From: Labilibaculum antarcticum
GTDB lineage: Bacteria > Bacteroidota > Bacteroidia > Bacteroidales > Marinifilaceae
Length of the DNA: 64,000 nt
NCBI RefSeq assembly: GCF_002356295.1
Contig: NZ_AP018042.1
Coordinates: 1,458,361-1,522,360 of the forward strand
Reading direction: 5' to 3'
The notes beneath the pieces are model-generated. The model was not told the DNA's origin, made no database searches, and was given only the letters and a program-made list of their open reading frames with translations. Positions 1,470 to 43,428 of this stretch are shown one piece after another. Position 1 is the first letter of the stretch, and the number at the start of each line of letters is the position of its first letter. A program made the position numbers and the translations under genes.

Positions 1470-2510
1470 TTATTTAACGTCCCAGGTATCACCGCTATTC
1501 AGCAAATCATCCATGCACTTGATTGTTGCTGTTGCTTGAACATCTTTAATTTGCTGAACCAATTTCTCCTCATAAGAAAGTGCTGAAACATCTCTAATTA
1601 CACCTAGTGCCACAGGATACTCCGGTGCCGACATATTAGATAATAACCAAGCCATATGAGGGTCTGGATTGTGTGCATCGTGAATAAGAACATCCTGTTC
1701 AGCAATCCCAAATTCACCAATCGTAACTACAATTAGCTTTCCGTTACCACCTAAAACCAATCCTTTATTCCTCTGCTTTCCAAAAATCATTCTCTCGCCA
1801 TGATGCAGAAGCAATTGAAAATCGTCCTTCGTTTCCTTGTCTGTGATTAATGTATGTGCACCATCATTATAGATTACACAATTTTGAAGAACTTCAATTA
1901 TAGATGTTCCTTTGTGTTTCGATCCAGCTAAAATTAATTCAGTAGTCAACTTAATATTTGTATCAATTGTTCTTGAATAAAATTTAGACTGAGCTCCCAA
2001 AGCCAATTCAGCAGGATGAAATGGTTGTTCGATTGTTCCGAATGGAGACGTTTTAGTTACCATTCCTTGTTTTGATGTTGGTGAATATTGACCTTTTGTC
2101 AGACCATAAATCTCATTATTAAAAAGAATGATTGTCATGTCGATATTACGACGAATAGCATGGATAAAATGATTACCTCCAATTGCTAACGCATCACCAT
2201 CTCCTGATATTTGTAATATTTCAAGATCGGGATTAGCCGATTTTACACCTGAAGCAATAGCTGCAGCTCTACCATGAATTGTATGAAAACCGTAAGTATT
2301 CATATAATATGGAAAACGAGATGAACACCCGATACCCGAAATAACCGCAAACTTTTCTTTCGGAACATCCATGGCAGCCATTGCTTTTTGCACCGAATTT
2401 AACACTCCATGGTCACCACATCCGGGACACCATTTTACTTCCTGATCACTTTTAAAATCTTTTGGAGTCAATTTCTCAGGCCTAAATGATTTAAGAATTG
2501 TATCTGTCAT
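1470..2510 (-). CDS. korB: 2-oxoacid:ferredoxin oxidoreductase, beta subunit (TPP-binding)
   Basis: Cytoplasmic subunit of a 2-oxoglutarate/2-oxoacid:ferredoxin oxidoreductase, which decarboxylates a 2-oxoacid to an acyl-CoA and reduces ferredoxin. The 346-residue protein carries WCPGCGDH at residues 27-34, a GIGCSSRFPYY stretch near 59-69, the TPP/Mg motif GDGDAL near 103 and NNEIYGLTKGQYSPTS near 130-145. These are the usual landmarks of the beta subunit, and the length is normal. It starts 2 bp after the korA stop, so the two are translated from one message. No ferredoxin gene or delta subunit lies beside it, as is common in Bacteroidota. Substrate choice between 2-oxoglutarate and other 2-oxoacids cannot be read from the sequence. 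Confidence 0.92.
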   Translation of the reverse strand: MTDTILKSFRPEKLTPKDFKSDQEVKWCPGCGDHGVLNSVQKAMAAMDVPKEKFAVISGIGCSSRFPYYMNTYGFHTIHGRAAAIASGVKSANPDLEILQISGDGDALAIGGNHFIHAIRRNIDMTIILFNNEIYGLTKGQYSPTSKQGMVTKTSPFGTIEQPFHPAELALGAQSKFYSRTIDTNIKLTTELILAGSKHKGTSIIEVLQNCVIYNDGAHTLITDKETKDDFQLLLHHGERMIFGKQRNKGLVLGGNGKLIVVTIGEFGIAEQDVLIHDAHNPDPHMAWLLSNMSAPEYPVALGVIRDVSALSYEEKLVQQIKDVQATATIKCMDDLLNSGDTWDVK

Positions 2511-2512
2511 GA

Positions 2513-4357
2513 TTATTTCTCCTCCAATAATTGGTTAAACCTCTCTTTTAATTCTATCACCGTAAAAGGTAATCCTTGTAATTTATTATACTGTTTGAAT
2601 TTGATATCCTGAAAACTTGCTCTTAAATACTCGGCAAATTGTCCTTCATTCAATTCACAAATAATAACTTTTTTATAACGCTTTAAAACCTCTTCAGTAT
2701 TCTTAGGCAGTGGAAAAATATAATGAAAATGTGCTAATGCAATATCCTTACCTTCTTTCTGAAGTTCTCGTACAGCCGTGGTTAAGTGACCATATGTCCC
2801 ACCCCATCCTACTACTAAAACATCAGCTTCCTCATTGCCCTTTACAGGAAGATCTGGGATATAATTAGCTACTCGTCGAATTCTTTCAGATCGAATGTCG
2901 GTCATCACCTGGTGATTCTCCGGTACATATGAAACCTCTCCTGTTACATCCATCTTCTCCAAACCACCAATACGATGTTCCAAGCCTTTTGTGCCAGGCA
3001 CAGCCCATCTCCGATTCAGTTTTTCAGCATCTCTTGCGTATGGTTGATAATCGTCTCCCTCTTTGGCCAATGGCACATTAATAGGAGATAGATCGGACAT
3101 TTTTGGTATTCTCCATGGCTCGGCACCATTCGCAATAAATCCGTCGGTTAATAGGATAACCGGGGTCATGTGCTCCAAAGCGATTTTACCGGCTCTAAAA
3201 GCATACTCAAAGCAATTTGATGGCGTACTAGCTGCAATTACCGGCATTGGACATTCTCCACTGCGACCATGAATTGCCTGCATTAAATCTGATTGCTCTG
3301 TTTTTGTAGGCAAACCTGTTGACGGACCACCACGCTGAACATTCACAATTACCAAAGGCAATTCAGTCATAACGGCTAAACCTGCAGCTTCTGTCTTAAG
3401 AGCCAATCCCGGCCCAGAGGTTGTGGTAACCGCAAAGCAACCCGCGAAACTTGCACCAATTGATGTGCAGATACCTGCTATTTCATCTTCAGCCTGAAAT
3501 GTTTTCACTCCTAAATCCTTGCGAGCTGCCAATTCCTGAAAAATCTCGGTGGCCGGAGTAATTGGATACGATCCGCAGAACAACTCCAAACCAGCTTTTT
3601 CAGCTGCGGCAATTAATCCCCATGCTGTTGCTTTATTTCCCGTGATATTGCGATAGGTTCCTTTCTTGATCTTAGCTGGTGCCACACTAAAATTATAAGG
3701 CAAAGCTTCAATGGTTTTTGCAAAATTATATCCTGCCCGCAACACCATCTTGTTTCCTTCAACAACTAATGGATATTTTTTGAATTTATTTTCAAGAAAT
3801 TCTTCCGTATGATCCAACGGACGATCAAACATCCAATAAACCATACCCAAAGTAAACATGTTCTTGCTGCGAAGAATACTTTTCTGATCCAATCCAGAAT
3901 CTTTTAAGCACTCTTTAGTTAGTGAAGTTACCCGTGCTTTAATCAGATTGTAATCTGCCAACTTTTCATCTTCTAACGGATTAGAATCATAACCTGCCTT
4001 TTCAATGCCTTTTGCAGTAAAACTATCCTCATTTACAATGATGGTTCCACTAGCTTTCACCCATTTTAAATTTGCTTTTAATGCTGCTGGGTTCATTGCC
4101 ACCAACACATCGGCAAAATCACCAGGAGTATTCACCTCCATGTGCCCGAAATGCAATTGAAAACCGGATACCCCACCAACTGTTCCTTGAGGAGCTCTAA
4201 TCTCAGCTGGATAATCAGGAAAAGTAGCAACATCATTCCCGAACAATGCGGACGTATCCGAAAATTGCGTTCCTGTGAGTTGCATGCCATCCCCCGAATC
4301 TCCGGAAAATCGAATTACAACTTCTTCTCTTTCAATGATTTTTATCTTTTGAGTCAT
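2513..4357 (-). CDS. korA: 2-oxoacid:ferredoxin oxidoreductase, alpha subunit (gamma-alpha fusion)
   Basis: The 614-residue partner of korB. The N-terminal gamma-type domain begins with RFSGDSGDGMQLTG at residues 17-29 and covers about 190 residues. The pyrimidine-binding alpha domain follows, with GSYPITPATEI near residue 260, AEDEIAGICTSIGASFAG after it and a transketolase C-like end. This fused layout and length are usual for KorA of Bacteroidota and other anaerobes. The gene leads the korAB operon. About 370 bp upstream are free of genes and contain an inverted repeat and short direct repeats that may regulate it. Confidence 0.92.
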   Translation of the reverse strand: MTQKIKIIEREEVVIRFSGDSGDGMQLTGTQFSDTSALFGNDVATFPDYPAEIRAPQGTVGGVSGFQLHFGHMEVNTPGDFADVLVAMNPAALKANLKWVKASGTIIVNEDSFTAKGIEKAGYDSNPLEDEKLADYNLIKARVTSLTKECLKDSGLDQKSILRSKNMFTLGMVYWMFDRPLDHTEEFLENKFKKYPLVVEGNKMVLRAGYNFAKTIEALPYNFSVAPAKIKKGTYRNITGNKATAWGLIAAAEKAGLELFCGSYPITPATEIFQELAARKDLGVKTFQAEDEIAGICTSIGASFAGCFAVTTTSGPGLALKTEAAGLAVMTELPLVIVNVQRGGPSTGLPTKTEQSDLMQAIHGRSGECPMPVIAASTPSNCFEYAFRAGKIALEHMTPVILLTDGFIANGAEPWRIPKMSDLSPINVPLAKEGDDYQPYARDAEKLNRRWAVPGTKGLEHRIGGLEKMDVTGEVSYVPENHQVMTDIRSERIRRVANYIPDLPVKGNEEADVLVVGWGGTYGHLTTAVRELQKEGKDIALAHFHYIFPLPKNTEEVLKRYKKVIICELNEGQFAEYLRASFQDIKFKQYNKLQGLPFTVIELKERFNQLLEEK

Positions 4358-7623: not shown

Positions 7624-9195
7624 TTACAATCCAGATTTCAGATTCCACCAAACTTTCTCTAAAAGATCCTCCTTTTGTGCAGGAGCATTTTCATTACGAG
7701 TCATTATGGCATCAGGATAAATAGGAGAAGCAGGCAATTTTGCATTTGTTCTACCTCTACCTTCAATGGCAATAGTTAAATCTCCCAGAGGAAAATTAGC
7801 ATAAGCATCAGCACGGTCTTTACGAATATCGATCGTGTTAACAGCTGGATACTTGGTTCTGTTTCTCTCTAAAAATGACTCAATATGCTGATAGTTCGCA
7901 TTCGCAACCCATTTCTGCATTGCAATTTGCTTAATTCCTTCTTCTATTGTACCATCAACCCAAGTTGCATAACCTGTCGTAATGATATCATCAGTTAAAG
8001 TAGCAGCTAAAGCCAAAGCTAAATCCTTATCTAAATCTACATCTATATCATTAATGTGCATTTTCATAGAAGCCTGAACCCCAAGATCATAATACTCTTT
8101 AGCCTTAGCATTGTTACCAGCACGAGCATAAACTTCAGCGATATAGAAATTAACTTCCCAGACAGACATGATTACAAGACTTTGATTTTGAGAGAATACA
8201 GCTTGACTGTAATCTTCATCTTCATCAAGATCACCATTCCCATCAGAATCTTCTTTAGAGGCAAAATCACCAAAAAAGGCACCCAGATGATAACCACCAG
8301 TCATTTCGAAAAGAACATCAAGACGAGGATCAGTATTCATTTCAAGATAATCCAAAAAGTTTTTAGAGGCAATCACGTTCCCACTTAAATAACCAGCTTC
8401 ACCTTCTTCAAACTCTCTCATAGGGTGACGTTTACCTTCTACTTTATCAGACCATGTAGAACCGCTGATTCCAGCATTGTTCTTAATAAACTCAGCTGAT
8501 TCGATAAAAGAAACAAGAGCAGCATTATTATAAGTTGAAGTTTCAGAAAGACGAATCATCAATTTCAACTTAAGCGAGTTTGCAAAAAGTTTCCACTGAT
8601 CTAAATCACCACCAAAATAAAAATCATAAGACGCAGGCAAAGAAGCTTCAGAAATATCCACAGCTAGCAATGCATCAACTCTTGCAAGTAAATCTGCATA
8701 AATAGCACTCCCTTCGTCAAATTTTGGTGATACAATTCCTTCATCTCCTTTTAGAGCTTCAAAATAAGGAATATCTCCCCACACATCGGTCGTAATTTGC
8801 CATGTGAATATTGACAGAGCTTCGGCAGCATAATATACACCCGTATTATTATTTTCCGTTGCAACAGTTTTCATTCTTTTACAATCTAAAAGAACACCAG
8901 CAGTTAAATCATTATATGCTGTACCAAAATCAGTTGGCTCATATTCGCATAAAAATTTGAATTGAGATGCATCATAAGCTTGAGTCCAGTATTCAGACCA
9001 AAAACCGGCTCCAAAACCAAAATCCCAACCCATCATTTGATTAGCCAAATTTAATTCAGCAGCAGGCAAAACTACCTTTGCTTCCGGAATATCTCGTAAT
9101 ACGTTTGGATCCTCATTTATATCTAAATAATTATCACAGCCCCAGCCAAATACAGACAAACAGGCAAGTGAAAATGCTATAATTTTATATTTCAT
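7624..9195 (-). CDS. SusD-like nutrient-binding lipoprotein (SusD-like_2 type)
   Basis: Surface lipoprotein that binds substrate over the SusC pore. The 523-residue protein has a signal peptide with Cys at residue 20 (WGCDNYLDINEDPN), the typical SusD start. After that come PEAKVVLPAAELNLANQMMG and TPR-like helices, including YAAEALSIFTWQITTDVWGD and FANSLKLKLMIRLSET, which match the PF12771 branch rather than classical SusD. A C-terminal region with PASPIYPDAIMTRNENAP is also typical of that branch. It follows SusC by 12 bp and is followed by two accessory lipoproteins. An Asp-rich segment near residues 315-330 (DSDGNGDLDEDEDY) looks like a calcium-binding loop. The substrate cannot be deduced. 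Confidence 0.88.
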   Translation of the reverse strand: MKYKIIAFSLACLSVFGWGCDNYLDINEDPNVLRDIPEAKVVLPAAELNLANQMMGWDFGFGAGFWSEYWTQAYDASQFKFLCEYEPTDFGTAYNDLTAGVLLDCKRMKTVATENNNTGVYYAAEALSIFTWQITTDVWGDIPYFEALKGDEGIVSPKFDEGSAIYADLLARVDALLAVDISEASLPASYDFYFGGDLDQWKLFANSLKLKLMIRLSETSTYNNAALVSFIESAEFIKNNAGISGSTWSDKVEGKRHPMREFEEGEAGYLSGNVIASKNFLDYLEMNTDPRLDVLFEMTGGYHLGAFFGDFASKEDSDGNGDLDEDEDYSQAVFSQNQSLVIMSVWEVNFYIAEVYARAGNNAKAKEYYDLGVQASMKMHINDIDVDLDKDLALALAATLTDDIITTGYATWVDGTIEEGIKQIAMQKWVANANYQHIESFLERNRTKYPAVNTIDIRKDRADAYANFPLGDLTIAIEGRGRTNAKLPASPIYPDAIMTRNENAPAQKEDLLEKVWWNLKSGL

Positions 9196-9207
9196 ATTTT
9201 TTTTTTA

Positions 9208-12200
9208 TTACAAAGTGAAATTTAAACCAAAAGTATAAAATTCGTTACTTGGACCTGCACCATACTCACCGAATTTAGCACCTATATCATTACCAAAAGT
9301 AGTTGTTTCAGGATCGATATAAGCATTTTCATTTGGGGTCCACAATAGAATATTGCTAGCGCTTAATGATAAGCTCAAAGAACTAACATGTAATTTACTG
9401 CAGAAACTTTTAGGTAACGCATAAGATAAATTTACATTTCTTAGTTTCAAGTAAGAACGGTCGATAATAGCATCTTCATCACCATCGAATCCACCGCCAT
9501 CACCATAAAATTTATGCAAGCCAGTAGGATCTACAGCCGTTGTATTTTCAACCCAGCCTCCTTGTCCGTCAGAAACAACAGAATTAGGAACCAAGAAAGT
9601 TTTTCTATCATTCAATACAGATTCAGGAGAAGAACCTGTCCAATGTAAATAATCCTTAGTATATGAATACATATATCCACCATAACTAAGATCCAGAGTT
9701 GTGCCTAAGCTAAATCCTTTATAAGTAAAGGTGTTGGTTAACCCCATTCTGAAATCAGCATCAACATCTTTTCCGATGAATTCAGTTTCAGTGGTTGGTT
9801 GTGGATTACCACTACCATCAACGACAGTATGCATTACTCCATCAATATCAACCTTTTTAACCGAGGCAATTTTAAACTGTCCCATAGATTTTCCTTCTAC
9901 AGCAACAATCGATGCACCACCAAAACCATCAAGATATACCTCCTCAACGTCTAAAGACTCAATTGTATTTTCATTTAATGAAACATTATATGCTACATCC
10001 CATGAAAAATTCGCAGTCCTAACAGGAGTGAAATTAACAGCTATTTCAAGTCCTTCATTACGAACATCACCTAAATTGGCTACCTGAGTAGTATAACCCG
10101 ATGATGGATCTTTAGGAAGATTAGCTATCAATCCTTCAGTTAAACGATTATAGTAAGACACATCGAAACCTAAACGGCTATTGAAAAATTGAGCCTCGAA
10201 ACCAAGTTCAAATTCTTTAGTTAACTCATTCTTCAAATCAGGATTTCCTAAACGGTTCGAAGCAGAATATGAATTAACGCCACCAATAGGGAAGGTCAAA
10301 TCATCAATATTTGGATAACCTGGATTATTTGAAAAAGCTGATACGTAACGATCATAAACTGCATAAGCCTCAGCGTCATTACCAGTCATACCGTAAGCAG
10401 CTCTAACTTTCGCAAAGTTTAAGATACCAGTATCGATATCATTGTACTTTAAGAAATCAGTAATTAGGAAACTTCCTGTAATACCTGGGTAAAAATAGTC
10501 ATTTTGCTCAAGTGGTAAAGTCGATGACCAGTCATTACGTGCAGTTAATGTCAAGTAAGCATAGTTTCTGTAGCTAAAGTCAACATTAGCATAAACACCA
10601 ATTAAACGACGTTTTGAACTTTCATGAGTAGAAACAGAAGGAGAGAAACTATTCGCTAAATTATAAAAATCAGGAATATCGATAGAATTAATACTTCCAT
10701 CTAAGTAAGTCATGCTTCTTTCGTTAACATTCATACCTGCAATAGCATTTAATGTAAAATCCTCATTCAGGTTTTTCTTATAGGTCATCATCACATCGTG
10801 ATTGATCTGAATTCTTTCAGTTCTTGATTCAGTAAAGTTACCCGGATTAGCAACACTTGATCCATCGTTAGGAGAACCTGGAGTAAAACCAATAATCGCA
10901 GTGTGTGTTTCGCCTAAAGCAACTTCATAATCACCACCAAAACGATAACTCAATCTCAAATCATCAGTAAAGTCATAGTCTAATTGAAATTTACCGAAAA
11001 GTTTTTTCTTATTTTGCTCGGCAGCATTCTCATTCAATACATAGTAAGGATTTACACCATAAGGAGTAAGATAATTATCCAGATTATTGAATTTATTATT
11101 ATAATCCTTCTGATCAACGATAGAGACATCATTGGGACTTTCGTAAAGAGATCTAAATACAGAAGTACCTTGACCAGAAGCAACTGCTTTTGTTTTCTCT
11201 GTACTGAAATTCACATTAGCGCTTATGGTTAATTTTCCAGCTTTATGAGATCCTTTAGTTGCGATTGTATATCTATCGTAAGAATCACTATCAGTTGGCA
11301 TTACACCATCAACCGAGTTTTGAGACAAAGACAATAGGAAGGTTGTAGTTTCATTACCACCACTCAAAGAAACTGAGTTTTTAAGATTCTTACCAACTTC
11401 ATAAAAATCACGCACTCTATCTTCTAAGAATACATAAGGCTTAACTTGCTGGCTATTGTCAACAATATTTCCCCATACTCTATCTTTCCCATCGTAAGCA
11501 GGACCCCAGTTGCCATTCTCATCCAAAGCTCTTTCACCGCTCCATCCTTGACCGAATTGCTTCTGAACATCAGGAAGACGACCAACTCTAGAGAAAGTAG
11601 TTGAACCACTATAAGAAACGCGCATCTTTCCATCAGTATTTTTACCTGACTTAGTAGTAATCATGATAACACCATTCGCAGCACGAGAACCATATAATGC
11701 AGTTGCCGCAGCACCTTTTAATACTGTCATATCTGCAATATCATCAGGATTAATTGCATTGATACCAGAACCAAAATCAACTTGTGAATTTAGAGCATTA
11801 CCAGATTGGTTTTGTACATTGGTAATAGGTACTCCGTCAACAATATAAAGAGGCTGGCTATTTCCAAAAGAGGAAGCACCACGAATCATTACATTCTGAG
11901 TAGCACCTGGTCCTGGAGCTGTTGAAATGTCAACACCAGCAACTTTACCTTGTAAAGCATTCATTGGATTAACTACCTGAGATTTTCCAATCTCATCTCC
12001 CCCTATAGAAGTTGCAGCATATCCTAATGCTTTCTTTTCACGAGTTACACCCATTGCAGTTACAATAACCTCGTCCATACCAATAGACTCGGATTCCATT
12101 ACAACATTAATAGTAGAAGAAGTAATTTCATGCTCCTGCATTTTCATTCCAACAAAAGAAAAGACCAAGATCTTTCCGTCTTCAGGAACATTTAAGGAGA

Positions 12201-12381
12201 AGTTACCATCGAAATCTGTAGTGGTACCGATGGTTGTACCTTTAACAATTACGGAAACTCCTGGGATAGACAGCCCATCATCGGCTGAAGTAACCACCCC
12301 TGAAACTTCTCGACTCTGAGCTAAAACGCTCTGTAATCCTATAATACATAGAATTAACATCGAAACTAAACTTTTTTTCAT
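9208..12381 (-). CDS. SusC/RagA-family TonB-dependent transporter (locus A)
   Basis: Outer-membrane importer of 1057 residues. Signal peptide about 1-21; carboxypeptidase-like domain about 24-100 (VSGVVTSADDGLSIPGVSV); TonB-box-like DEVIVTAMG at 103-111; plug domain about 115-245 with VAGVDISTAPGPG, PLYIVDGVPI and VLKGAAATALYGSRAANG; then a 22-strand-type barrel ending in FYTFGLNFTL. It leads a four-gene operon with a SusD-like_2 partner. The first 107 residues and the whole upstream region are nearly those of the second SusC at 14820-17987, whereas the plug and barrel differ strongly. A relic of a carbonic anhydrase gene lies upstream. The substrate is unknown and no glycoside hydrolase, peptidase or sulfatase gene is in the operon. 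Confidence 0.95.
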   Translation of the reverse strand: MKKSLVSMLILCIIGLQSVLAQSREVSGVVTSADDGLSIPGVSVIVKGTTIGTTTDFDGNFSLNVPEDGKILVFSFVGMKMQEHEITSSTINVVMESESIGMDEVIVTAMGVTREKKALGYAATSIGGDEIGKSQVVNPMNALQGKVAGVDISTAPGPGATQNVMIRGASSFGNSQPLYIVDGVPITNVQNQSGNALNSQVDFGSGINAINPDDIADMTVLKGAAATALYGSRAANGVIMITTKSGKNTDGKMRVSYSGSTTFSRVGRLPDVQKQFGQGWSGERALDENGNWGPAYDGKDRVWGNIVDNSQQVKPYVFLEDRVRDFYEVGKNLKNSVSLSGGNETTTFLLSLSQNSVDGVMPTDSDSYDRYTIATKGSHKAGKLTISANVNFSTEKTKAVASGQGTSVFRSLYESPNDVSIVDQKDYNNKFNNLDNYLTPYGVNPYYVLNENAAEQNKKKLFGKFQLDYDFTDDLRLSYRFGGDYEVALGETHTAIIGFTPGSPNDGSSVANPGNFTESRTERIQINHDVMMTYKKNLNEDFTLNAIAGMNVNERSMTYLDGSINSIDIPDFYNLANSFSPSVSTHESSKRRLIGVYANVDFSYRNYAYLTLTARNDWSSTLPLEQNDYFYPGITGSFLITDFLKYNDIDTGILNFAKVRAAYGMTGNDAEAYAVYDRYVSAFSNNPGYPNIDDLTFPIGGVNSYSASNRLGNPDLKNELTKEFELGFEAQFFNSRLGFDVSYYNRLTEGLIANLPKDPSSGYTTQVANLGDVRNEGLEIAVNFTPVRTANFSWDVAYNVSLNENTIESLDVEEVYLDGFGGASIVAVEGKSMGQFKIASVKKVDIDGVMHTVVDGSGNPQPTTETEFIGKDVDADFRMGLTNTFTYKGFSLGTTLDLSYGGYMYSYTKDYLHWTGSSPESVLNDRKTFLVPNSVVSDGQGGWVENTTAVDPTGLHKFYGDGGGFDGDEDAIIDRSYLKLRNVNLSYALPKSFCSKLHVSSLSLSLSASNILLWTPNENAYIDPETTTFGNDIGAKFGEYGAGPSNEFYTFGLNFTL

Positions 12382-12825
12382 AAACCTTTAGTTAGTGGTT
12401 AATTAACATTAATACACATTTATATATAAATTCATTCACCCCATTAAAATGAGATGAAAGCAATAAAATGCACCCTTTAGAATGGTCTTCAAGAAGAGAT
12501 TTTAGTTGAATCACTAAATACAACCTCTTAAATCGCAGATTTCAAAATACCCCTATTTATATCTGCGGACTCAAAAGTGTGAAAAAAACTTAAATTTTCA
12601 AACCTTTTTTATCGTAAACCTTTTAAATTTAAGTTAAAGTGGACTTTGGAACTAACAAATTACTAGTATGAAACACTATTTACTTTCAAATTAACACAAG
12701 GCTATCATTCTCATTTTCAATTTTATTCACGTTAACGTTTGCGTTACTTTTTTCAAACATATTTAGAAAAGATAACTCGAATATTATTTTAATTCTTCTT
12801 TTATTTAAAATCAAACTAAATAAGA
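12382..12825. promoter_or_regulatory. Upstream region of SusC A
   Basis: An AT-rich gene-free stretch homologous to 17988-18433. Conserved blocks include AAAAGTGTGAAAAAAA, the CACGTTAACGTTTGC block at 12728-12742 and the segment just before the carbonic anhydrase start. The matching -7 element of the anhydrase promoter (18402-18409) has lost its final G here. The SusC promoter itself could not be pinpointed. Confidence 0.6.
12728..12747. promoter_or_regulatory. Conserved GTTAACGTTTG block, copy A
   Basis: CACGTTAACGTTTGCGTTAC contains the inverted repeat TAACG-TTTG-CGTTA. The first 15 bases are identical to the block at 18335-18354. It lies about 350 bp from SusC A and about 80 bp from the anhydrase relic. 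It is a candidate regulator-binding site, by conservation only. Confidence 0.45.
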
Positions 12826-12905
12826 ATGACTTTTACTTTTGTATTTAGATGGAAAATCTTCAGTAATTGGCACAGAGCTGTCTTGCGTGCTGATGTTCAT
12901 GACTA
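12826..12905 (+). pseudogene. Relic of a gamma carbonic anhydrase gene (5' part with internal deletion)
   Basis: The first 30 bases match the start of the anhydrase gene at 18434, then about 72 bp are missing. Next, 12861-12900 matches 18541-18580 at 32 of 40 positions. In the same frame the relic reads SNWHRAVLRADVHD where the intact protein has SIWYSAVLRGDVHS (residues 37-50). After that the similarity ends, although the frame stays open to 13083. The zinc-binding histidines H66, H84 and H89 of the intact protein are not present, so no enzyme can be made. It marks the end of the duplicated module. Confidence 0.8.
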
Positions 12906-13073
12906 TATTTACCATATGATATTCGTTTACTCCGAACCGAAAATTTACTGCCAACGTCCGTCATATTTAACCTCACTAAACATATCTTTTCTCTTGACCA
13001 ATGTTTGGAAACTACAAACACCCCAAACAGAATTTTATCTTAAAGTTATTCGCCATACACGGCACACCAAAAA
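12906..13073. other. Gap without recognisable content
   Basis: Between the anhydrase relic and the terminator of the second SusD gene I see no gene, repeat or match to the other module copy. Confidence 0.5.
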
Positions 13074-13101
13074 AAGGCCCTGAAGTTAACTTCAGGGCCT
13101 T
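13074..13101 (-). terminator. Terminator of the second SusC/SusD pair
   Basis: A perfect 28-bp palindrome with arms AAGGCCCTGAAGTT and AACTTCAGGGCCTT. On the minus strand it is followed by seven T. It is about 110 bp past the SusD stop. Confidence 0.9.
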
Positions 13102-13208
13102 ACTATAAAATACAGGTTTCGAATTACTTATAAAACGCAGGTAATTCAAATATTCTAACGATACTAATTTTCATATAATTTAAAATAAAACCTGAATCAA
13201 TAATAAAT

Positions 13209-14801
13209 TTATTCAGAAACTGGGGATGGTGCTACTGCTGCAGGGTTATTATCACCATTACTTATTACAGGGTTAGCCTGAATCTCAGCTTCAGGTACTC
13301 TCCACAATAAAATGTCACTTCCTGCTGGAATGTTGAATATCATGGTAGCATTTGGATATCCTCCTCCACGACGGTCAATACCTTTGTTTAAACGCATAAT
13401 ATCGAACCAGTTCATACCTTCACCCCATAATTCAATTCTACGTTGACGGAACACTTCTTCCTGAACATCACCTGCAAATGAATAAGAAGCATCACGATAA
13501 GTAGTAACAAAGTCCACAAGTGTACTTATACCATCAGCACCACTCATAGCTTCAGCCTCTGCTTTAATCAAATACATTTCTTCAATTCTCATTAAAGGAA
13601 TATCATTTGCATTTGTAGAAGTTTCAATCTCACCCTTATAAGGTGCAAATTTCACTTGAGTGTAAGGTCTGTATTGATAATCCACCATGAATGCATTTTC
13701 TATATCAGTTAAATTAGCTGAATATGAATTTTCATCAGTCCACCATCCTTTACGAATATCAGTACTTGAGATACTATTATAAAGCGCCTTATTAATTTGT
13801 CTACCACCACTATACCAACAGTACCCATAATTAAAAGAACCCATATGAGAAATCCAGTTGATAATACCAGAGGCAACCACATCATCCGTTTCAGCAACAA
13901 AAACGCCCCACATCCAGTTAGAGTCTTCGATATTCGAAAAATAAGGATCACTTACTTCATCGATACTCGCTGGCGTAGCGTCACTGGCAGCAATTGCACT
14001 AGTTGCATCTGCTGCAGCTTCAGCGTACTTATGCATCGTTAGATTTACACGTGCACGAAGTCCATAAGCAACAGCCAAACTAACGTAACGTTTATCTGAA
14101 CGCACAGAACCACCTTCTTCTGCTGATTTTAATAATGTAATAGCAGTGTTAAGATCACTTAACATTAAAGTATAAACCTCTTCAACTGTAGCACGTGGTG
14201 CACCACCAGCCAAAGACGTTTCAATTGCGTTTTCAGCAGTAATTATTGGAACACATAGAGCTGATTCATGACCAACATAATTGAACTGATACAATTGAGC
14301 CAAAACCCAATAGCTAAAAGCTCGTGCTGCCAAACCTTGACCTAGATAAAACTGAGTCACAGGCTCTTCTGTTGCTGGATCAATAGAACCAATTACATTA
14401 TTAGAATTACTAATAATCGCGTACATATCATTCCAAATAATCTGTGTCTCTCTTGATGTATAATCACGATCTGAATACTCAAGAGAACCTGACATCCAGT
14501 TATAACCATTATCCTCTTGTACTACGTCACAACCATTAGCATCAGAGAACATCATTACAGATCCATAGCCAATATCAAAATGATTAACTCGACCTAGAGC
14601 ATCTTCATTAGGTGCATATTGAGAAAACTGAGCAAAAATACCATTAACCCCAGCTGCAGCTTTTGAAGGATCGTTTTCTACAACTTCTGCTTTTTGCTCT
14701 GTTGTAATATCTTCTCCTAAAGGCGCTGTATCTAGATCTTCACACCCAAAGAATGTTAGTAAAACGGGTACTAACAAAGCATATATATATTTATTTTTCA
14801 T
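13209..14801 (-). CDS. SusD/RagB-family nutrient-binding lipoprotein (locus B)
   Basis: Substrate-binding surface lipoprotein of about 530 residues, paired with the SusC at 14820. I use the second ATG (14801), which gives the signal peptide MKNKYIYALLVPVLLTFFGC with its lipobox; the ATG at 14810 would add three residues. After CEDLDTAPLGED come TPR-like helices (ARAFSYWVLAQLYQFNYVG) and the classical C-terminal SusD signature EEVFRQRRIELWGEGMNWFD with IMRLNKG. The last part, IPAGSDILLWRVPEAEIQAN, is typical of classical SusD. It therefore belongs to a different SusD branch than the protein at 7624-9195. It starts 9-18 bp after SusC and ends the transcript. Substrate unknown. Confidence 0.9.
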   Translation of the reverse strand: MKNKYIYALLVPVLLTFFGCEDLDTAPLGEDITTEQKAEVVENDPSKAAAGVNGIFAQFSQYAPNEDALGRVNHFDIGYGSVMMFSDANGCDVVQEDNGYNWMSGSLEYSDRDYTSRETQIIWNDMYAIISNSNNVIGSIDPATEEPVTQFYLGQGLAARAFSYWVLAQLYQFNYVGHESALCVPIITAENAIETSLAGGAPRATVEEVYTLMLSDLNTAITLLKSAEEGGSVRSDKRYVSLAVAYGLRARVNLTMHKYAEAAADATSAIAASDATPASIDEVSDPYFSNIEDSNWMWGVFVAETDDVVASGIINWISHMGSFNYGYCWYSGGRQINKALYNSISSTDIRKGWWTDENSYSANLTDIENAFMVDYQYRPYTQVKFAPYKGEIETSTNANDIPLMRIEEMYLIKAEAEAMSGADGISTLVDFVTTYRDASYSFAGDVQEEVFRQRRIELWGEGMNWFDIMRLNKGIDRRGGGYPNATMIFNIPAGSDILLWRVPEAEIQANPVISNGDNNPAAVAPSPVSE

Positions 14802-14819
14802 ATCAATCATTTAAAATTA

Positions 14820-17800
14820 TTAAAACGACAAATTAATACCAGCAGAAATTGTTCGTATTGGTGTATAACGAGCAGTTGTAGCTGATGTATAACTTTGACG
14901 AGGATCTAAACCTTTTCTTTTTGTCCACAATGCCACATTATCTGCTGCGAAATAAATACGAAGTTTTTCAATGTGTAATCTCTGAACAAATTCATCAGAG
15001 AAAGAATAACCAATTGTCACATTATTAAGACTTAAATAATCTGAACTTGTTATAAAACGTGTTGAAGTCGAATTAGCATACTTATCATTAGCATCCAAAC
15101 GAGGAACATTAGTATCAGTATTATCTGGAGTCCAAGCGTTCCTAATATCTGTATGATAGTTTCGTCCTGCATTACTTGCATTACCACCATGCATTAAACG
15201 CTGGTATCCTGAGTCATAAATTTTACCACCCAATTGATAAGCACACTGCACTGATGCATCAAAACCATAAGCTTTAAAAGAAGTACCAAAACCACCATAA
15301 ACAACTGGCATTAGGTTATCAGTCGCTACTTTGTATTCTGAAGCAATAGAATACTCTTCTGTTTTATAACGTTCGCCTGCTTCATCTTCAGCCCAATATA
15401 AAGCCATTCCAGTAGCAGCATCTACACCAGCATAGTCAACTAAGTACATACGATACATCGATTCACCTTCAGAATATATTCTAGTGCCATCAATTAATTC
15501 GCCTTCCAATTCAGCAGCCAACTCATTAATTTCATTCTTAATGAATGTAGCATTACCAGTAAATGTCCAATCAAAATTGTCGCTTTTTAGGATAGTATAC
15601 GATAAATCAACCTCTACACCAGAATTGGTCATTGACCCAATATTCATTGGAAGAGAAGTATATCCTAAACTAGCAGCAACTGGCTTGTAGTATAACATAT
15701 CTGAAGACTTACGTCCGAAATACTCTAATGTACCCATTAATTTATTATCTAACAATGCAAAGTCAACACCTACATTATATGATACCGAAGTTTCCCAAGA
15801 AATATCTGGATTTCCTTTATAAGATAAAGTACCATCAGAGAAAACACCATCTGCTCCAGAAACCGTATACTGGTCAAGATAAGCATAGTAATTACCTATA
15901 TCATCATTACCTTGCTCACCAAAAGAAGCTTTTAATTTCAACATATTAACCCAAGAAGTCGATTCCATGAATGACTCATTACTAAGAATCCATGCGGCAC
16001 TAGTTGACCAAAAATCTCCCCAACGATTGTCTGGACTAAAACGTGATGATGCATCACGACGATAAGCTACATTAAAGAAATAGGTATCTTTAAGAGAATA
16101 GTTGATACGAGTAAACATACCTTCAGTTGAGTAAGTGTCTTTTGAACCACCACCTTGAATCTGATCAATAGCATTATCTACATAATACGATTCAGGGTTA
16201 TATAGATTTTGCCCATTAGCATAAACGTTTTCAGTTTCGTATTTATAACCATCATAACCTGCAGTAATATCAAATTGACCATCAAAACCTGCAGCAAACT
16301 GATAATTTGCTACATATTGCTGATTAAAACCAACTGTTCTTGTTTGCTCCTGACCAGCAGTTCCCCCATAAGAAGCACTTTGTCCCTGGTAAGCATTACC
16401 TAGGCTACCATTACGTTTATTGTTAACATTTAATCCATAACGAAGATTCACCGTTAATCCATCTATTGGGGCAATTTCAGCGTACCATGTAGAATTAATA
16501 ACATCACTTCTATACTTTTCATCGTTATACGTTAAATCCCCTGCTGGATTAGCAATCGACATAAATGAACGGTTCATGTTTGTACTCTGACCATCTCCAT
16601 AGTCATATACCTTACGTCCTTTATTAAGAAGAATATTTTCGTCAAGTCCACGTACATACATTGGATATATTGGTGCAATGTAATTTGCGATAAAGAAAGC
16701 ATTACCACTAGAAGAGACCTCTGTTTGCTCATCTGGATCAGCACTTGTAATATTATTAATATTTACATTTGCTCCAACTTTTAACCAATCTTTAACTTGG
16801 TGATCTCCCTTAAAACGTCCAGAAATTCTCTCAAAACCGGATCCAGAAACAACACCTTTATCATCAAGATAACCTAAAGATAGGTAATAAGTACTTTTAT
16901 CATTACCACCTGAAATAGACAAATTGTAATCTTGTCTTGTATTATTTTGGAACATTTCATCTTCCCAATCGTCTGGTGTATAATAATAATCGCCGTCGCT
17001 ATAACCTAAAGTTGCATTCGGATTAAGCTTACCATCAGTTCCCATCAATCCTTCACCGTCAGGAAAAGTATAAACTTGGTAACCAGTACCACCTTCAGTG
17101 TTAGTTAAAATCTTACTATTTGCATAAGCATGTGCATCTTCTGGAGTATAACCCAAATTATAGATACCAGCATTGTATATTGCTGAATATGTATCCCCTA
17201 AGTATTCTTCCTTACTTGTTAACACATCATAATTTTTAACAGAACGAGAGTTTACTCCGACTTTCATGTCAAAATTAACTCTTGTCTTACCAGCCTTAGC
17301 TTTTTTAGTTGTAATCATGATAATACCATTGGCTCCACGAGCACCATAAAGTGCTGTAGAAGCAGCATCTTTCAATACAGTCATCGATTCAATATCGGTA
17401 GAACTGATAGTATTCAAATCACCATCAAAAGGAATACCATCTACTACATATAAAGGATTCGTACCCGCATTGATAGAACCAACCCCACGTACGCGAACAG
17501 TTGCATCAGCACCTGGCTGTCCATTATTACTAAGAACTTGCACACCAGCTACTGAACCTGATAAGGCTTGCGAAACATTAGAAACCTGACGTTTCTCAAG
17601 TGTTTCAGCACCGACCACTGCAGCAGAACCAGTAAAAGAACCCTTTGTAGAAGTACCATAAGCCACTACAATCACTTCATCCATACCAATGGACTCGGAT
17701 GCCATTACAACATTAATCGTAGAAGAAGTAATTTTTTTTTCCTGCATAGTCATTCCAACAAAAGAAAAAACCAAAACCTTCCCATCCGCAGGAACATTTA

Positions 17801-17987
17801 AGGAGTAATTACCTTCTAAGTCAGTAGTAGTTCCTAAGGTTGTACCTTTTACAATTACGGAAACTCCAGGGATAGACAGCCCATCATCGGCTGATGTAAC
17901 CATCCCTGAAACTTCTCGACTCTGAGCTAGAACGCTCTGTAATCCTATAGCAAATAGGATTAACATCGAAAATAAACTTTTTTTCAT
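14820..17987 (-). CDS. SusC/RagA-family TonB-dependent transporter (locus B)
   Basis: Outer-membrane importer of 1055 residues with signal peptide (about 1-21), carboxypeptidase-like domain (about 24-100), TonB-box-like DEVIVVAYG, plug with VRVRGVGSINAGTNPLYVVD and VLKDAASTALYGARGANG, and a barrel ending in IRTISAGINLSF. The plug is of the common VVAYGT type and differs from that of the SusC at 9208-12381, although the first 107 residues of both are almost the same. It leads a two-gene operon with a classical SusD. It is divergent from the carbonic anhydrase gene at 18434, with 446 bp between. No degradative enzyme is encoded next to it. Confidence 0.95.
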   Translation of the reverse strand: MKKSLFSMLILFAIGLQSVLAQSREVSGMVTSADDGLSIPGVSVIVKGTTLGTTTDLEGNYSLNVPADGKVLVFSFVGMTMQEKKITSSTINVVMASESIGMDEVIVVAYGTSTKGSFTGSAAVVGAETLEKRQVSNVSQALSGSVAGVQVLSNNGQPGADATVRVRGVGSINAGTNPLYVVDGIPFDGDLNTISSTDIESMTVLKDAASTALYGARGANGIIMITTKKAKAGKTRVNFDMKVGVNSRSVKNYDVLTSKEEYLGDTYSAIYNAGIYNLGYTPEDAHAYANSKILTNTEGGTGYQVYTFPDGEGLMGTDGKLNPNATLGYSDGDYYYTPDDWEDEMFQNNTRQDYNLSISGGNDKSTYYLSLGYLDDKGVVSGSGFERISGRFKGDHQVKDWLKVGANVNINNITSADPDEQTEVSSSGNAFFIANYIAPIYPMYVRGLDENILLNKGRKVYDYGDGQSTNMNRSFMSIANPAGDLTYNDEKYRSDVINSTWYAEIAPIDGLTVNLRYGLNVNNKRNGSLGNAYQGQSASYGGTAGQEQTRTVGFNQQYVANYQFAAGFDGQFDITAGYDGYKYETENVYANGQNLYNPESYYVDNAIDQIQGGGSKDTYSTEGMFTRINYSLKDTYFFNVAYRRDASSRFSPDNRWGDFWSTSAAWILSNESFMESTSWVNMLKLKASFGEQGNDDIGNYYAYLDQYTVSGADGVFSDGTLSYKGNPDISWETSVSYNVGVDFALLDNKLMGTLEYFGRKSSDMLYYKPVAASLGYTSLPMNIGSMTNSGVEVDLSYTILKSDNFDWTFTGNATFIKNEINELAAELEGELIDGTRIYSEGESMYRMYLVDYAGVDAATGMALYWAEDEAGERYKTEEYSIASEYKVATDNLMPVVYGGFGTSFKAYGFDASVQCAYQLGGKIYDSGYQRLMHGGNASNAGRNYHTDIRNAWTPDNTDTNVPRLDANDKYANSTSTRFITSSDYLSLNNVTIGYSFSDEFVQRLHIEKLRIYFAADNVALWTKRKGLDPRQSYTSATTARYTPIRTISAGINLSF

Positions 17988-18334
17988 AAACTTTAAGTTA
18001 GTGGTTAAGTAACATTAATACACATTTATATATAAATCCATTTATCTCTTAAATTAAAGAAATAAAAGCAACAAAATGCACGCTTTTGAATTGTTTCGAC
18101 TAAAAATCATATTCTTCCTATCAGTTAAATTCTGTTAAAAATGATAGATTTTAAGTACCATAATTACTTTATAGTATATAAAAGTGTGAAAAAAAGTTAA
18201 ATTTTCAAACATTTTTTCACAAAAACCTTTAAAACTCAAATAAAAGAACACGAACTAGATTGCAATTCAAAAGATAAATAGCAAATTTACTTACAATTGC
18301 TCTCCTAGTTAACATACTCATTTTCAATTTCATT

Positions 18335-18354
18335 CACGTTAACGTTTGCATAAC
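18335..18354. promoter_or_regulatory. Conserved GTTAACGTTTG block, copy B
   Basis: CACGTTAACGTTTGCATAAC lies about 80 bp before the anhydrase start and about 350 bp before SusC B. The second half-site (CGTTA in copy A) reads CATAA here. Confidence 0.45.
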
Positions 18355-18401
18355 TTTTTTTATAACATATTTTTAAAAGATCACTCAAATATTTTTTTAA
18401 T

Positions 18402-18409
18402 TATCTTTG
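18402..18409 (+). promoter_or_regulatory. -7 element of the carbonic anhydrase promoter
   Basis: TATCTTTG matches the Bacteroidota -7 consensus TAnnTTTG and lies 24 bp before the ATG. The copy-A counterpart has lost the final G. No clear -33 element was found. Confidence 0.6.
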
Positions 18410-18433
18410 TATTTATAATTAAACTAAATAAGA

Positions 18434-18970
18434 ATGGCTTTTATAAGAGACTTAAATGGAAAAACTCCGATATTTGGAGGTAATTGCTTTTTAGCTGAGA
18501 CTGCAGTAATAATTGGTGATGTTGAAATGGGTAATGATTGCAGTATTTGGTACAGTGCTGTTTTACGTGGAGATGTTCACTCTATCCGTCTTGGGAACAA
18601 TGTAAATGTACAAGACAATGCGACTATACATGCGACTTATAAAAAATCGCCAACAACCATCGGAAATAACGTTTCTATTGCCCACAATGCGGTGGTTCAT
18701 GGCTGTACGATAAAAGACAACGTTCTTATTGGTATGGCTGCGGTTATTTTGGATGATGCTATTATTGAAAGCAACGCTATTATTGCTGCAGGATCAGTTG
18801 TTACGAAAGGTACACATGTGGAATCAGGTAGTGTATATGCAGGTGCTCCTGCAAAAAAAATAAAGGAATTGAGTCCGGAACTGTTAGAAGGAGAAATTAA
18901 TCGCATTGCCAACAGCTATGCGATGTATGCCAGTTGGTACAAAGAAGATGAACAAACTTTGAATGAGTAA
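18434..18970 (+). CDS. Gamma carbonic anhydrase family protein (YrdA/PaaY-like)
   Basis: A 178-residue left-handed beta-helix protein of hexapeptide repeats ([LIV]GxxxxV-like, for example AVIIGDVEMGNDC, TTIGNNVSIAHNAV). Zinc-site histidines are H66 (ATIHATY), H84 (SIAHN) and H89 (VVHGC), as in the gamma carbonic anhydrase fold. The C-terminal helix with YAMYASWYKED is typical. Activity as an anhydrase is not assured, since many family members are uncharacterised metal-binding trimers. The gene stands alone between the divergent SusC and the convergent murI, with a bidirectional terminator behind it. A broken copy of its 5' end lies at 12826. Confidence 0.88.
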   Translation: MAFIRDLNGKTPIFGGNCFLAETAVIIGDVEMGNDCSIWYSAVLRGDVHSIRLGNNVNVQDNATIHATYKKSPTTIGNNVSIAHNAVVHGCTIKDNVLIGMAAVILDDAIIESNAIIAAGSVVTKGTHVESGSVYAGAPAKKIKELSPELLEGEINRIANSYAMYASWYKEDEQTLNE

Positions 18971-18987
18971 GCTAAGCTCAATCAAGA

Positions 18988-19027
18988 ACAGAGCCTTTCA
19001 ATTAATTTTATTGAAAGGCTCTGCTTT
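18988..19027. terminator. Bidirectional terminator between the anhydrase gene and murI
   Basis: The arms AGAGCCTTTCAAT and ATTGAAAGGCTCT enclose a short AT loop in the 79-bp convergent gap. A T-rich run follows on the plus strand. Confidence 0.85.
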
Positions 19028-19049
19028 TATACTAAATCGACTGCAATAT

Positions 19050-19877
19050 TTAATAGCTAATATGCTGAGCTTTTAAACTTATATTCAGAAAACGACTCGC
19101 TTTCTCCTCAAAACTATCTACAAATTCAGTCGTAAAGAATTCACAATTTGAGTTTTTGGAGCACCTCTCATCCATTTCTGGATGTCGGAAAAGATAATCT
19201 TTTAAACTTCGTGCAACAATCTCCCCCTGAGAAATCAACTGAATGTGATCTGGTAGGATTTTCCTAATCTCGGTTTGCATTAAAGGATAATGTGTACACC
19301 CTAAAATTATTGAGTCAATAAGAGGGTCTTTCGCCAATAAACTATCGATGTTCTTTTTAATAAAATATCTTCCACCGTTCGTGTCAATCTCGTTATTTTC
19401 AACCAAAGGAACCCACATTGGGCAGGCCTCCTGTAACACCACCACATCAGGAAATAATTTAGCAATCTCCAGCGGATACGAATTCGATCGAATTGTACCA
19501 ACGGTTCCCATTATGCCGATATGATGTGTCTTGGTGATTTTAGAAACCTCTTCAACACTAGGCCGAATGACTCCCAACACCCTTCTATTGGAATTAATTT
19601 TAGGTAAATCGCATTGTTGAATCGTTCGTAATGCTTTTGCAGAAGCAGTATTACACGCAAGTATTACTAACTCACAACCCATTGAGAAAAGCTGCTCTAC
19701 GGCCTCTAATGTGTAGTCATATACGACATCATAGGATCGTGTACCATACGGACTTCTGGCATTATCTCCTAAATAAACAAAATCGTACTCAGGAAGCGCT
19801 TTAAGCAACTCGTTTAATACGGTTAAACCACCGTATCCTGAATCAAAAACACCAATTGGCTGACTATTTTTTATCAT
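19050..19877 (-). CDS. murI: Glutamate racemase
   Basis: Converts L-glutamate to D-glutamate for peptidoglycan. Starting at the ATG at 19875-19877 the protein has 275 residues and opens MIKNSQPIGVFDSGYGGLTV. The catalytic cysteines lie in ACNTASA and GCTHYPL, and the substrate motif DNARSPYGT is present. An upstream ATG at 19916 would add 13 residues, but that extension lies in a terminator hairpin of the preceding gene, so I chose the internal start. The gene closes the envelope block after bamA and two ompH genes, but behind a terminator, so it may also have its own promoter. Confidence 0.92.
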   Translation of the reverse strand: MIKNSQPIGVFDSGYGGLTVLNELLKALPEYDFVYLGDNARSPYGTRSYDVVYDYTLEAVEQLFSMGCELVILACNTASAKALRTIQQCDLPKINSNRRVLGVIRPSVEEVSKITKTHHIGIMGTVGTIRSNSYPLEIAKLFPDVVVLQEACPMWVPLVENNEIDTNGGRYFIKKNIDSLLAKDPLIDSIILGCTHYPLMQTEIRKILPDHIQLISQGEIVARSLKDYLFRHPEMDERCSKNSNCEFFTTEFVDSFEEKASRFLNISLKAQHISY

Positions 19878-42884: not shown

Positions 42885-43215
42885 CAAAATACCAGGAGAA
42901 TATTTGCTGGTAAAAAAGAGAGTAGATACTTGAATAGATGGTCATTTCTTGAGGAAAAAGGGACCATATACTTGAATAGAAGTCCATTTATTAAGGAAGA
43001 AGAGACCATATACTTGAGTAAGAGTCCCTTTTCTAGTAAAAAAGAGACCATCTACTTGAATAGAAGTCCATTTTGCAAGGAAAAAGAAATCATCCACTTG
43101 AGTATTAGTTCATTTCTTGTGGAATAAAAGACCATCTACTTAAATAGAAGTCCCCATTTGCAAGGTAAAAAGATCATCAATTTGGGTAGAAACTCATTTA
43201 CTTATCAGGAAAACG
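42885..43215. repeat. Tandem repeat of 7 to 8 units, period exactly 42 bp
   Basis: The anchor TACTTGAATAG or a variant occurs at 42927, 42969, 43011, 43053, 43095, 43137 and 43179, with 42 bp between each. The consensus unit has GACCATCTACTTGAATAGAA followed by GTCCATTT and a purine-rich end. A degenerate extra unit may precede at about 42885. Because 42 is divisible by three, both strands have repetitive open frames (for example TIYLNRSPF on the plus strand, stop at 43127). The two central units are best conserved. Not a CRISPR, since there are no unique spacers. Confidence 0.9.
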
Positions 43216-43428
43216 ATTGGTTCATTAGCCGAAATAGTTCCGAATAAAAAGGAAGTATCACGCTCGAATTTGATTGGATTCATCGTCAATAATTTCACTT
43301 ACTTATTCGCAGCAATTCTACCAAACAGAAGCAATAAGTTGATTAAATAATACAGGAAAATTCTTGTTTTAACAATTTTTAATTCCAATTGCTAAAAGCT
43401 TTTTCTTATCTTCCTCAGAATTTAATAA
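43216..43428. other. Gap without recognisable content
   Basis: No gene or repeat is visible between the 42-bp array and the 43429 gene. It must hold the promoter of that gene, but no TAnnTTTG element stands out. Confidence 0.4.

Follow-up and report, generated by a model that had tools for sequence, protein, structure and literature searches.

Two SusC genes behind one front end: a probable leader slot for exchangeable SusCD cassettes in Labilibaculum antarcticum and its relatives

How do two SusC transporters whose barrels are about 20% identical come to stand in tandem behind near-copies of the same promoter, signal peptide and first hundred-odd codons, one of them beside an intact carbonic anhydrase-like gene and the other beside its remains? 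The question is posed by a 64,000-nucleotide stretch of Labilibaculum antarcticum (NCBI RefSeq contig NZ_AP018042.1, positions 1,458,361 to 1,522,360; hereafter the window, in whose numbering coordinates are given). The answer we favour, at a probability of roughly 0.8, is that SusC-SusD (SusCD) transporters occupy a fixed leader slot here, one in which promoterless cassettes of a SusC plug-barrel and its SusD are exchanged near the TonB box behind leaders that stay in place, arrays growing on the carbonic anhydrase (CA) side.

The two transporters of the window lie on the minus strand, each followed by a SusD-family lipoprotein: SusC_A (9208..12381) by SusD_A, its lid (7624..9195, minus strand; SusD-like_2, PF12771), and SusC_B (14820..17987) by SusD_B (13209..14810, minus strand; PF14322/PF07980). 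Both SusCs match TIGR04056 over nearly their full length (635.5 and 772.3 bits, cut-off 368). The intact neighbour (18434..18970, plus strand) carries hexapeptide repeats (PF00132) and has the gamma carbonic anhydrase family NF050158 as its best NCBIfam match, but at 160.8 bits against a cut-off of 250, so that the label given to it in the initial annotation is right as to nearest family and too firm as to membership; we call the product CA-like. Positions 11642-12870 and 17296-18477 form one local alignment, 71% identical over 1251 columns, with an ungapped core of 300 nt at 87% (12061-12360 against 17667-17966) and three blocks upstream of the SusC starts at 80-84%. Each copy of this module runs from the TonB-box codons through the SusC start and the intergenic DNA to the start of the CA gene. 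The shared part of SusC, about 106 codons, is the leader: signal peptide, N-terminal extension (NTE) and the beginning of the TonB box in SusC_A (12064-12381, minus strand), with plug and barrel below it, and signal peptide and NTE (PF13715, residues 26-107) up to the TonB box in SusC_B (17670..17987, minus strand). The intergenic part measures 444 bp by coordinates in copy A (12382..12825) and 446 bp in copy B (17988..18433).

Beyond copy A lies a relic of the CA gene (12826..12908, plus strand) that retains codons ~1-10 and ~30-50, the alignments placing a deletion between them. Its DNA at 12844-12908 matches CA nucleotides 89-152 with a score of 55, which none of 500 dinucleotide shuffles reached (best 45); from 12906 onward similarity to the gene is not above chance (328 of 500 shuffles). 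An open reading frame (ORF) of 85 aa (12826-13083) spans the relic and keeps the frame, reading AVLRADVHD where the CA-like protein has AVLRGDVHS, and shows no Pfam match at E 0.001. Against the whole genome (5.7 Mb, a single contig) the N-terminus of SusC_B finds 48 matches, of which the two inside the window reach 100% and 86% and the remaining ones 59% or less, and the next-best match of the DNA module outside the window is just 98 nt at 76%. The initial annotation had proposed the same-order alignment, a shared SusC front with about 440 bp of upstream DNA, a relic at one copy and the intact gene at the other, barrels and SusD partners that are not close, and hence a different transporter operon behind the second copy of a duplicated 5' module, and this description stands. 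What it missed is that the module is the leader of a slot whose plug-barrels and SusDs turn over across the family.

The CA gene was found in 53 of 56 Marinifilaceae genomes, in single copy in each, and its locus was read in 25 of them, the window and a doubtful genome, G028, included (handles of this kind denote genomes or loci of our collection). A SusC stands beside the CA gene and divergent from it in 20 of these 25 loci; three have none there (G019, G029, G030), in two the contig ends first (G060, G073), and two genomes from other families (G044, G049) also lack a SusC beside the gene. As far as each stretch reaches, the flanks of this place, slot 1, are kept: on the left korAB, two 2-oxoacid:ferredoxin oxidoreductase-like genes that serve as its left anchor (1470..4357 in the window, minus strand), and a gene of 991 aa, and on the right the CA gene as right anchor, followed by murI. 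In the interval from korAB to CA-murI, homologous promoters, signal peptides and NTEs go together with differing SusC plug-barrels and SusD lids in six genus groups, the changeover lying at codons ~82-106, beside the TonB box. The intergenic distance from SusC to CA is 438-455 bp in 18 proximal copies and 830 bp in that of G016 (L083). In a Labilibaculum filiforme slot, a gene for an M16-family peptidase by Pfam (L073:10165-13044) lies between two SusCD pairs, and Marinifilum arrays L118 and L119 have a 975-aa ORF at a similar position. One inner SusC of G072 (Marinifilum fragile; L119:9725-12888) is split over two frames, as is the slot-2 SusC of the same genome (L143), which may reflect either the decay of an array member or an error in sequencing.

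The promoter region tells proximal from inner copies. The -7 consensus of Bacteroidota, TAnnTTTG, is found no more than 90 nt from the CA start in each of the 18 CA-proximal copies (shuffled windows: 5%), at -32 in 13, at -33 in one and at -41 to -43 in the four from Ancylomarina; in the window it is TATCTTTG (18402-18409, within promoter region copy B). When 330-480 nt upstream of susC were scanned in 13 inner copies, 11 had no such box and two had one at or after the position of the CA start, not at -32. Copy A of the window has lost the box and retains the block on the SusC side (12573-12639, matching 18180-18246 in copy B), which a strict pattern finds in 27 of 31 copies, missing that of window copy B, and which was aligned in 13. 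The divergent promoter also contains a conserved element near CACGTTAACGTTTGCGTAAC (12690-12760 and 18295-18365), whose CGTTTGC core recurs in 13 of 13 aligned copies and which is possibly an operator.

Leader and plug-barrel have separate histories. The 19 CA-proximal SusCs of slot 1 agree at 65-100% over signal peptide and NTE (codons 1-106), while plug identity falls to 40% and barrel identity to 16% (17% in a separate table of slot-1 pairs). In DNA, the isolates K2S, L. manganireducens and L. euxinus are 95-96% identical in korA, 94-97% in the leader, 95-97% in the intergenic region and 94-96% in the CA gene, and yet the plug-barrel between these flanks is 61-66% identical, the drop lying at codons ~80-106, by the TonB box. 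G007 and G008 agree almost wholly at 100% over the left 12 kb, at 98% in the intergenic DNA and base for base over the opening 248 nt of susC, with a cassette in between at 46-92% per 200-bp bin, a swap that needs confirmation, G008 being a metagenome-assembled genome (MAG). Same-slot pairs with leaders of at least 85% identity have barrels below 50% in 72 of 103 cases, and at the third array position (p3) of four Ancylomarina genomes leaders of 86-93% precede four different barrels of 21-36%. The contrast is not an effect of rate, because the 56 same-slot pairs with barrels of at least 70% identity average 85% in the leader and 83% in the barrel.

Trees say the same. On the leader tree of 50 SusCs, the 31 of slot 1 and the 19 of a second slot, described below, fall apart at 100/100 support and with one change of slot; the plug-barrel tree requires six, and changes of genus number 21 on the plug-barrel tree against 10 on the leader tree. 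Approximately unbiased (AU) tests reject slot-1 monophyly of the plug-barrels (p 3.5e-47) and also three groupings of leaders by barrel kin, pairings that were chosen after the barrel tree had been seen (p 8e-51, 8e-126 and 2e-5). Both barrel trees are quick searches that returned long-row warnings, so their deep joins are unsure, and the pairings named here are short-branched. The trees comprise ORFs above 950 aa; they omit G001, G060 and G073, where contigs end, and the split inner slot-1 and pepD-proximal slot-2 SusCs of G072, whose row labelled s2p1 is the outer gene. In the smaller trees and the AU tests the outer slot-2 rows of G026 and G016 are cut by the locus end, while the 50-SusC trees used full-length rows. 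G028 (L079) was excluded from every tree and included in the CA-locus count, the identity tables and the CA-distance correlation given below. Its slot (G028:C1:2218901-2238900) shows 100% patches to G061 in the leader, the CA gene and part of the left flank and ~94-98% identity to G017 in barrel and promoter, and is either a chimeric assembly, as it looks, or a true mosaic.

Where, then, do the plug-barrels come from? Across the 56 family genomes, the best matches to that of SusC_B besides itself are in G026 (77%) and G016 (76%), where they adjoin a divergent pepD-like gene behind a different leader (MKKMIGLF...). This second slot, with its own leader, is present in 14 of the 21 genomes whose pepD locus was read, that of the window included, and was not seen at the pepD locus of G009, G019, G024, G034, G059, G061 and G065. 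The smaller barrel tree joins SusCs across slots in three pairings at support 100: SusC_B of the window with slot 2 of G026 and G016, and slot 1 of G014 and slot 1 of G004 each with slot 2 of G012. Homologues of the SusC_B plug-barrel at slot 2 are 74-77% identical to it, and in five pairs one plug-barrel (74-90%) stands behind two leader types (55-62%). SusC_B (14820..17987) is a chimera of a slot-1 leader and a plug-barrel family found at slot 2 of Marinifilum.

Two further syntenic groups look alike. A profile of the slot-1 leader found 70 loci in the genome collection; plug-barrels go down to ~20% identity in a comparison that omitted L176 and in which the split into leader and plug-barrel failed for two SusCs. 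One group, with the leader MKKLIGLF, comprises four loci from Ancylomarina and one Marinifilaceae MAG (leaders 88-94%, barrels 35-74%) beside genes that we take, from their protein starts, to be ffh/folD-like. The other, with the leader MKRLIF, comprises five Marinifilum loci (leaders 75-95%, barrels 26-96%), the upstream genes being visible for four; the neighbour is presumably a zupT-like gene, again named from the protein start. A plug-barrel that is ~80% identical to that of slot 1 in G004, and as much as 85% to that of slot 2 in G012, also occurs at two loci of Ancylomarina, of which one was seen next to the zupT-like gene; this places the G004-slot-1 barrel family behind three leader types. 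It seems rather more probable than otherwise that Marinifilaceae hold several SusC leader slots, next to homologues of CA, pepD, folD and zupT. Every slot would have a promoter, signal peptide and NTE of its own and would repeatedly capture promoterless plug-barrel and SusD cassettes near the TonB box; a dedicated recombinase does not appear to be involved, though no gene for one was searched for.

The ends of the cassette can be read from DNA. The nearest relative found of SusC_B and SusD_B occupies slot 1 of Ancylomarina L158 (protein identity: barrel 88%, SusD 87%, leader 76%, CA 82%). Between the stop of susD and roughly codon 100 of susC, window and L158 are 79-97% identical per 100 bp (mean 89%); outside this interval the values are 66-87% for the leader, 48-63% for the promoter and 51-78% for the CA gene. 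Included in the conserved part is a terminator-like hairpin 3' of SusD_B (13069..13104, with a perfect palindrome at 13074-13101), which marks the 3' end of the cassette, so that the exchanged unit in the window comprises the plug-barrel of SusC_B, SusD_B and the terminator (13069..17687, minus strand). All four cross-slot comparisons drop at about codon 100. The right edge lies near the Pfam boundary between NTE (26-107) and plug (117 on), by the TonB box, and at this junction 23 consecutive bases are the same in SusC_B of the window and in its slot-2 relative. The left edge is less uniform: the susD stop in the pair G014/G012, within 50 bp of it in the window pair, and ~600 bp beyond, in the next gene, in the two comparisons with G004.

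Under the favoured reading, the divergent promoter, the start of susC, the signal peptide and the NTE would remain in place on the chromosome, tied to the CA gene, and the rest of the operon, devoid of a promoter (susC from about the TonB box, susD and sometimes accessory genes), would be replaced between species and slots. Homologous recombination in the conserved TonB-box and leader DNA of resident and incoming susC is the probable agent; resolved at or past the end of susD, it would replace or add a cassette. In the window, SusC_B and SusD_B would have been added on the CA side along with a second leader-promoter module, after which the old CA start beside SusC_A would have lost its promoter box and decayed. 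Recombination between the directly repeated leaders may in turn excise a cassette and bring back a single occupant.

Much the same picture would be left if whole SusCD operons inserted with promoters of their own and the resident leaders then overwrote their 5' ends by gene conversion. Such conversion would yield the same leader and barrel trees; leaders within one array do resemble each other, 13 inner slot-1 copies align with the upstream DNA of the slot (local scores 92-717, with no shuffle control for the score), and G028 offers a leader-only patch, though in an assembly that looks chimeric. We nevertheless consider it unlikely, since cross-slot homology of the cassettes ends at the leader, array positions in Ancylomarina keep position-specific leaders (the p3 series above) that concerted conversion would blur, and no remnant of a foreign leader or promoter appeared in the alignments made, a systematic search for remnants not being among them.

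A second possibility concerns direction. The initial annotation had the 5' module and the CA start copied from B onto a pre-existing operon A, on the ground that the intact CA gene is kept at B only. The relatives with a single SusC-CA junction that it predicted do exist, and they speak against the proposed direction: in G006 (Labilibaculum euxinus), G007, G008 and G017 the sole SusC beside an intact CA gene is the orthologue of SusC_A (barrel 77-93% identical to it). Likewise in Marinifilum, the single occupant of G012 corresponds, at 98% in the leader and 94% in the barrel, to the SusC that lies farthest out in the G026 array. In DNA, the leader of copy A agrees at 90-92% with the SusC_A leaders of the same four relatives and at 88% with that of B, yet at only 87% with the SusC_A leader of G003. 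Copying from B to A is therefore quite improbable. Since single-occupant relatives carry the SusC_A or the outermost type beside the CA gene, it is most likely that arrays grow on the CA side and that, in the window, SusC_A is the older neighbour and SusC_B the later arrival, an order drawn from relatives; SusC_A orthologues hold an outer or middle array position in G003, G024, G034 and G059. Loss of occupants in the relatives is a less simple alternative to a late arrival of SusC_B. Recent duplication in place is disfavoured, the two modules of the window being no closer to each other than to copies in other species, with marginal AU support.

Several observations pull the other way and temper the favoured reading. 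Leader, intergenic DNA and CA gene of the window diverge by 11-22% from those of its own genus; the event is therefore an old one, beyond detailed reconstruction of its stages. An arrangement with the two window leaders as sisters is rejected only marginally (p 0.047), so that a duplication in place retains some probability. The relic is clear just in the window: in the other 12 inner slot-1 copies similarity to the CA gene alone is not significant, the module similarity of several inner SusCs reaching or passing the CA start without a significant match to the gene, and five inner copies of slot 2 showed no clear PepD relic. Distances within slot 1 (G028 included) correlate with CA distance for the leader (Spearman 0.43, 1 of 2000 permutations) and still do so for the plug (0.32, 3 of 2000) and the barrel (0.215, 39 of 2000); part of the barrels is thus inherited vertically, and the contrast between leader and barrel is modest in this test. 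A Salinivirgaceae set of three loci lacks the pattern (leaders 76-99%, barrels 85-87%). To these are added the after-the-fact choice of the AU pairings and the fact that leader-only conversion following the arrival of whole operons would give the same pattern.

Elements of such a system are already known. In Bacteroides fragilis, intergenic SusC/SusD shufflons (region EE; Tsr0667 invertase) place alternative susCD pairs behind a fixed promoter, with an exchange point near the susC start, according to passages of two reports (PMC5729914, PMC4747536). The logic is the same, but site-specific inversion is a very improbable explanation here: there it is reversible, occurs within one cell and relies on inverted repeats and a recombinase, whereas in the window the leaders are direct repeats, each operon comes with a leader and a promoter of its own, replacement runs between species, genomes and slots, and no inverted repeats of at least 24 nt (12-nt seeds) were found in 9000-19200, recombinase genes lying outside that search. 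Least credible of all is the absence of any recombination, with NTE and promoter merely under stronger constraint than plug and barrel: leader conservation does exceed barrel conservation in most slot-1 pairs, but orthologous barrels are conserved like their leaders, one plug-barrel occurs behind two leader types and the topologies differ significantly; unless they are artefacts, the cross-slot pairs refute it.

Closer in outcome is the rag locus of Porphyromonas gingivalis (ragAB, rag-1 to rag-4), where, as parts of two papers describe it, one locus holds alternative SusC/SusD alleles that spread horizontally (PMC11817032, PMC5266723). The rag alleles are variants of a single transporter, ragA differing by up to 30% (PMC11817032, in the portion consulted). 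The likeness lies in conserved flanks around alternative SusCD alleles, as in the three isolates above (korA and CA at 94-96%, plug-barrel DNA at 61-66%); the difference is that slot 1 holds different kinds of SusC and SusD, with plug-barrels down to ~20%, behind one leader (the rag alleles may share one too), that the junction lies by the TonB box, that one cassette family occurs at several slots and that arrays form. The domain order, NTE, TonB box, plug and barrel, is that of other SusC/RagA transporters with an NTE (PF13715), among which deletion of the NTE of Bt1763 abolished detectable growth on levan, as a passage of PMC7782687 reports; unlike there, plug-barrels have here been swapped naturally many times behind one NTE lineage. 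The msp2/p44 expression-site cassettes of Anaplasma, from partial accounts, offer an analogy only: a constant site with an exchanged variable part, with turnover seen here between species and neither a silent repertoire nor rapid switching shown here.

No description of leader-fixed plug-barrel exchange at the TonB box was found in literature searches covering titles, abstract openings and selected passages, and the passages drawn from a paper on pyoverdine receptors (PMC11444679) hold nothing on it. Alternative SusCD alleles at one locus are known from rag, and SusCD pairs brought behind one promoter by inversion from B. fragilis, in both cases by the partial sources just cited; new, as far as these searches show, are leader slots with a TonB-box junction, cassette families that recur across slots and genera, and the relic of a neighbouring gene as a mark of array growth. 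Natural chimeras that pair a single NTE lineage with a range of unrelated plug-barrels, joined beside the TonB box, suggest that the NTE is not substrate-specific and plays a transporter-independent role. If the leader-slot reading is true, the NTE would be an adaptor independent of the transporter and tied to regulation or assembly at the slot, and nutrient range would evolve by exchange of cassettes, not of operons. Recombination can in this way place a new nutrient transporter under an existing control region; natural SusC chimeras provide ready swap points for probing the role of the NTE, and trees of whole SusC proteins can blend two histories. Elsewhere in the window, and unrelated to these findings, positions 42903-43216 contain direct repeats of ~71-73% identity.

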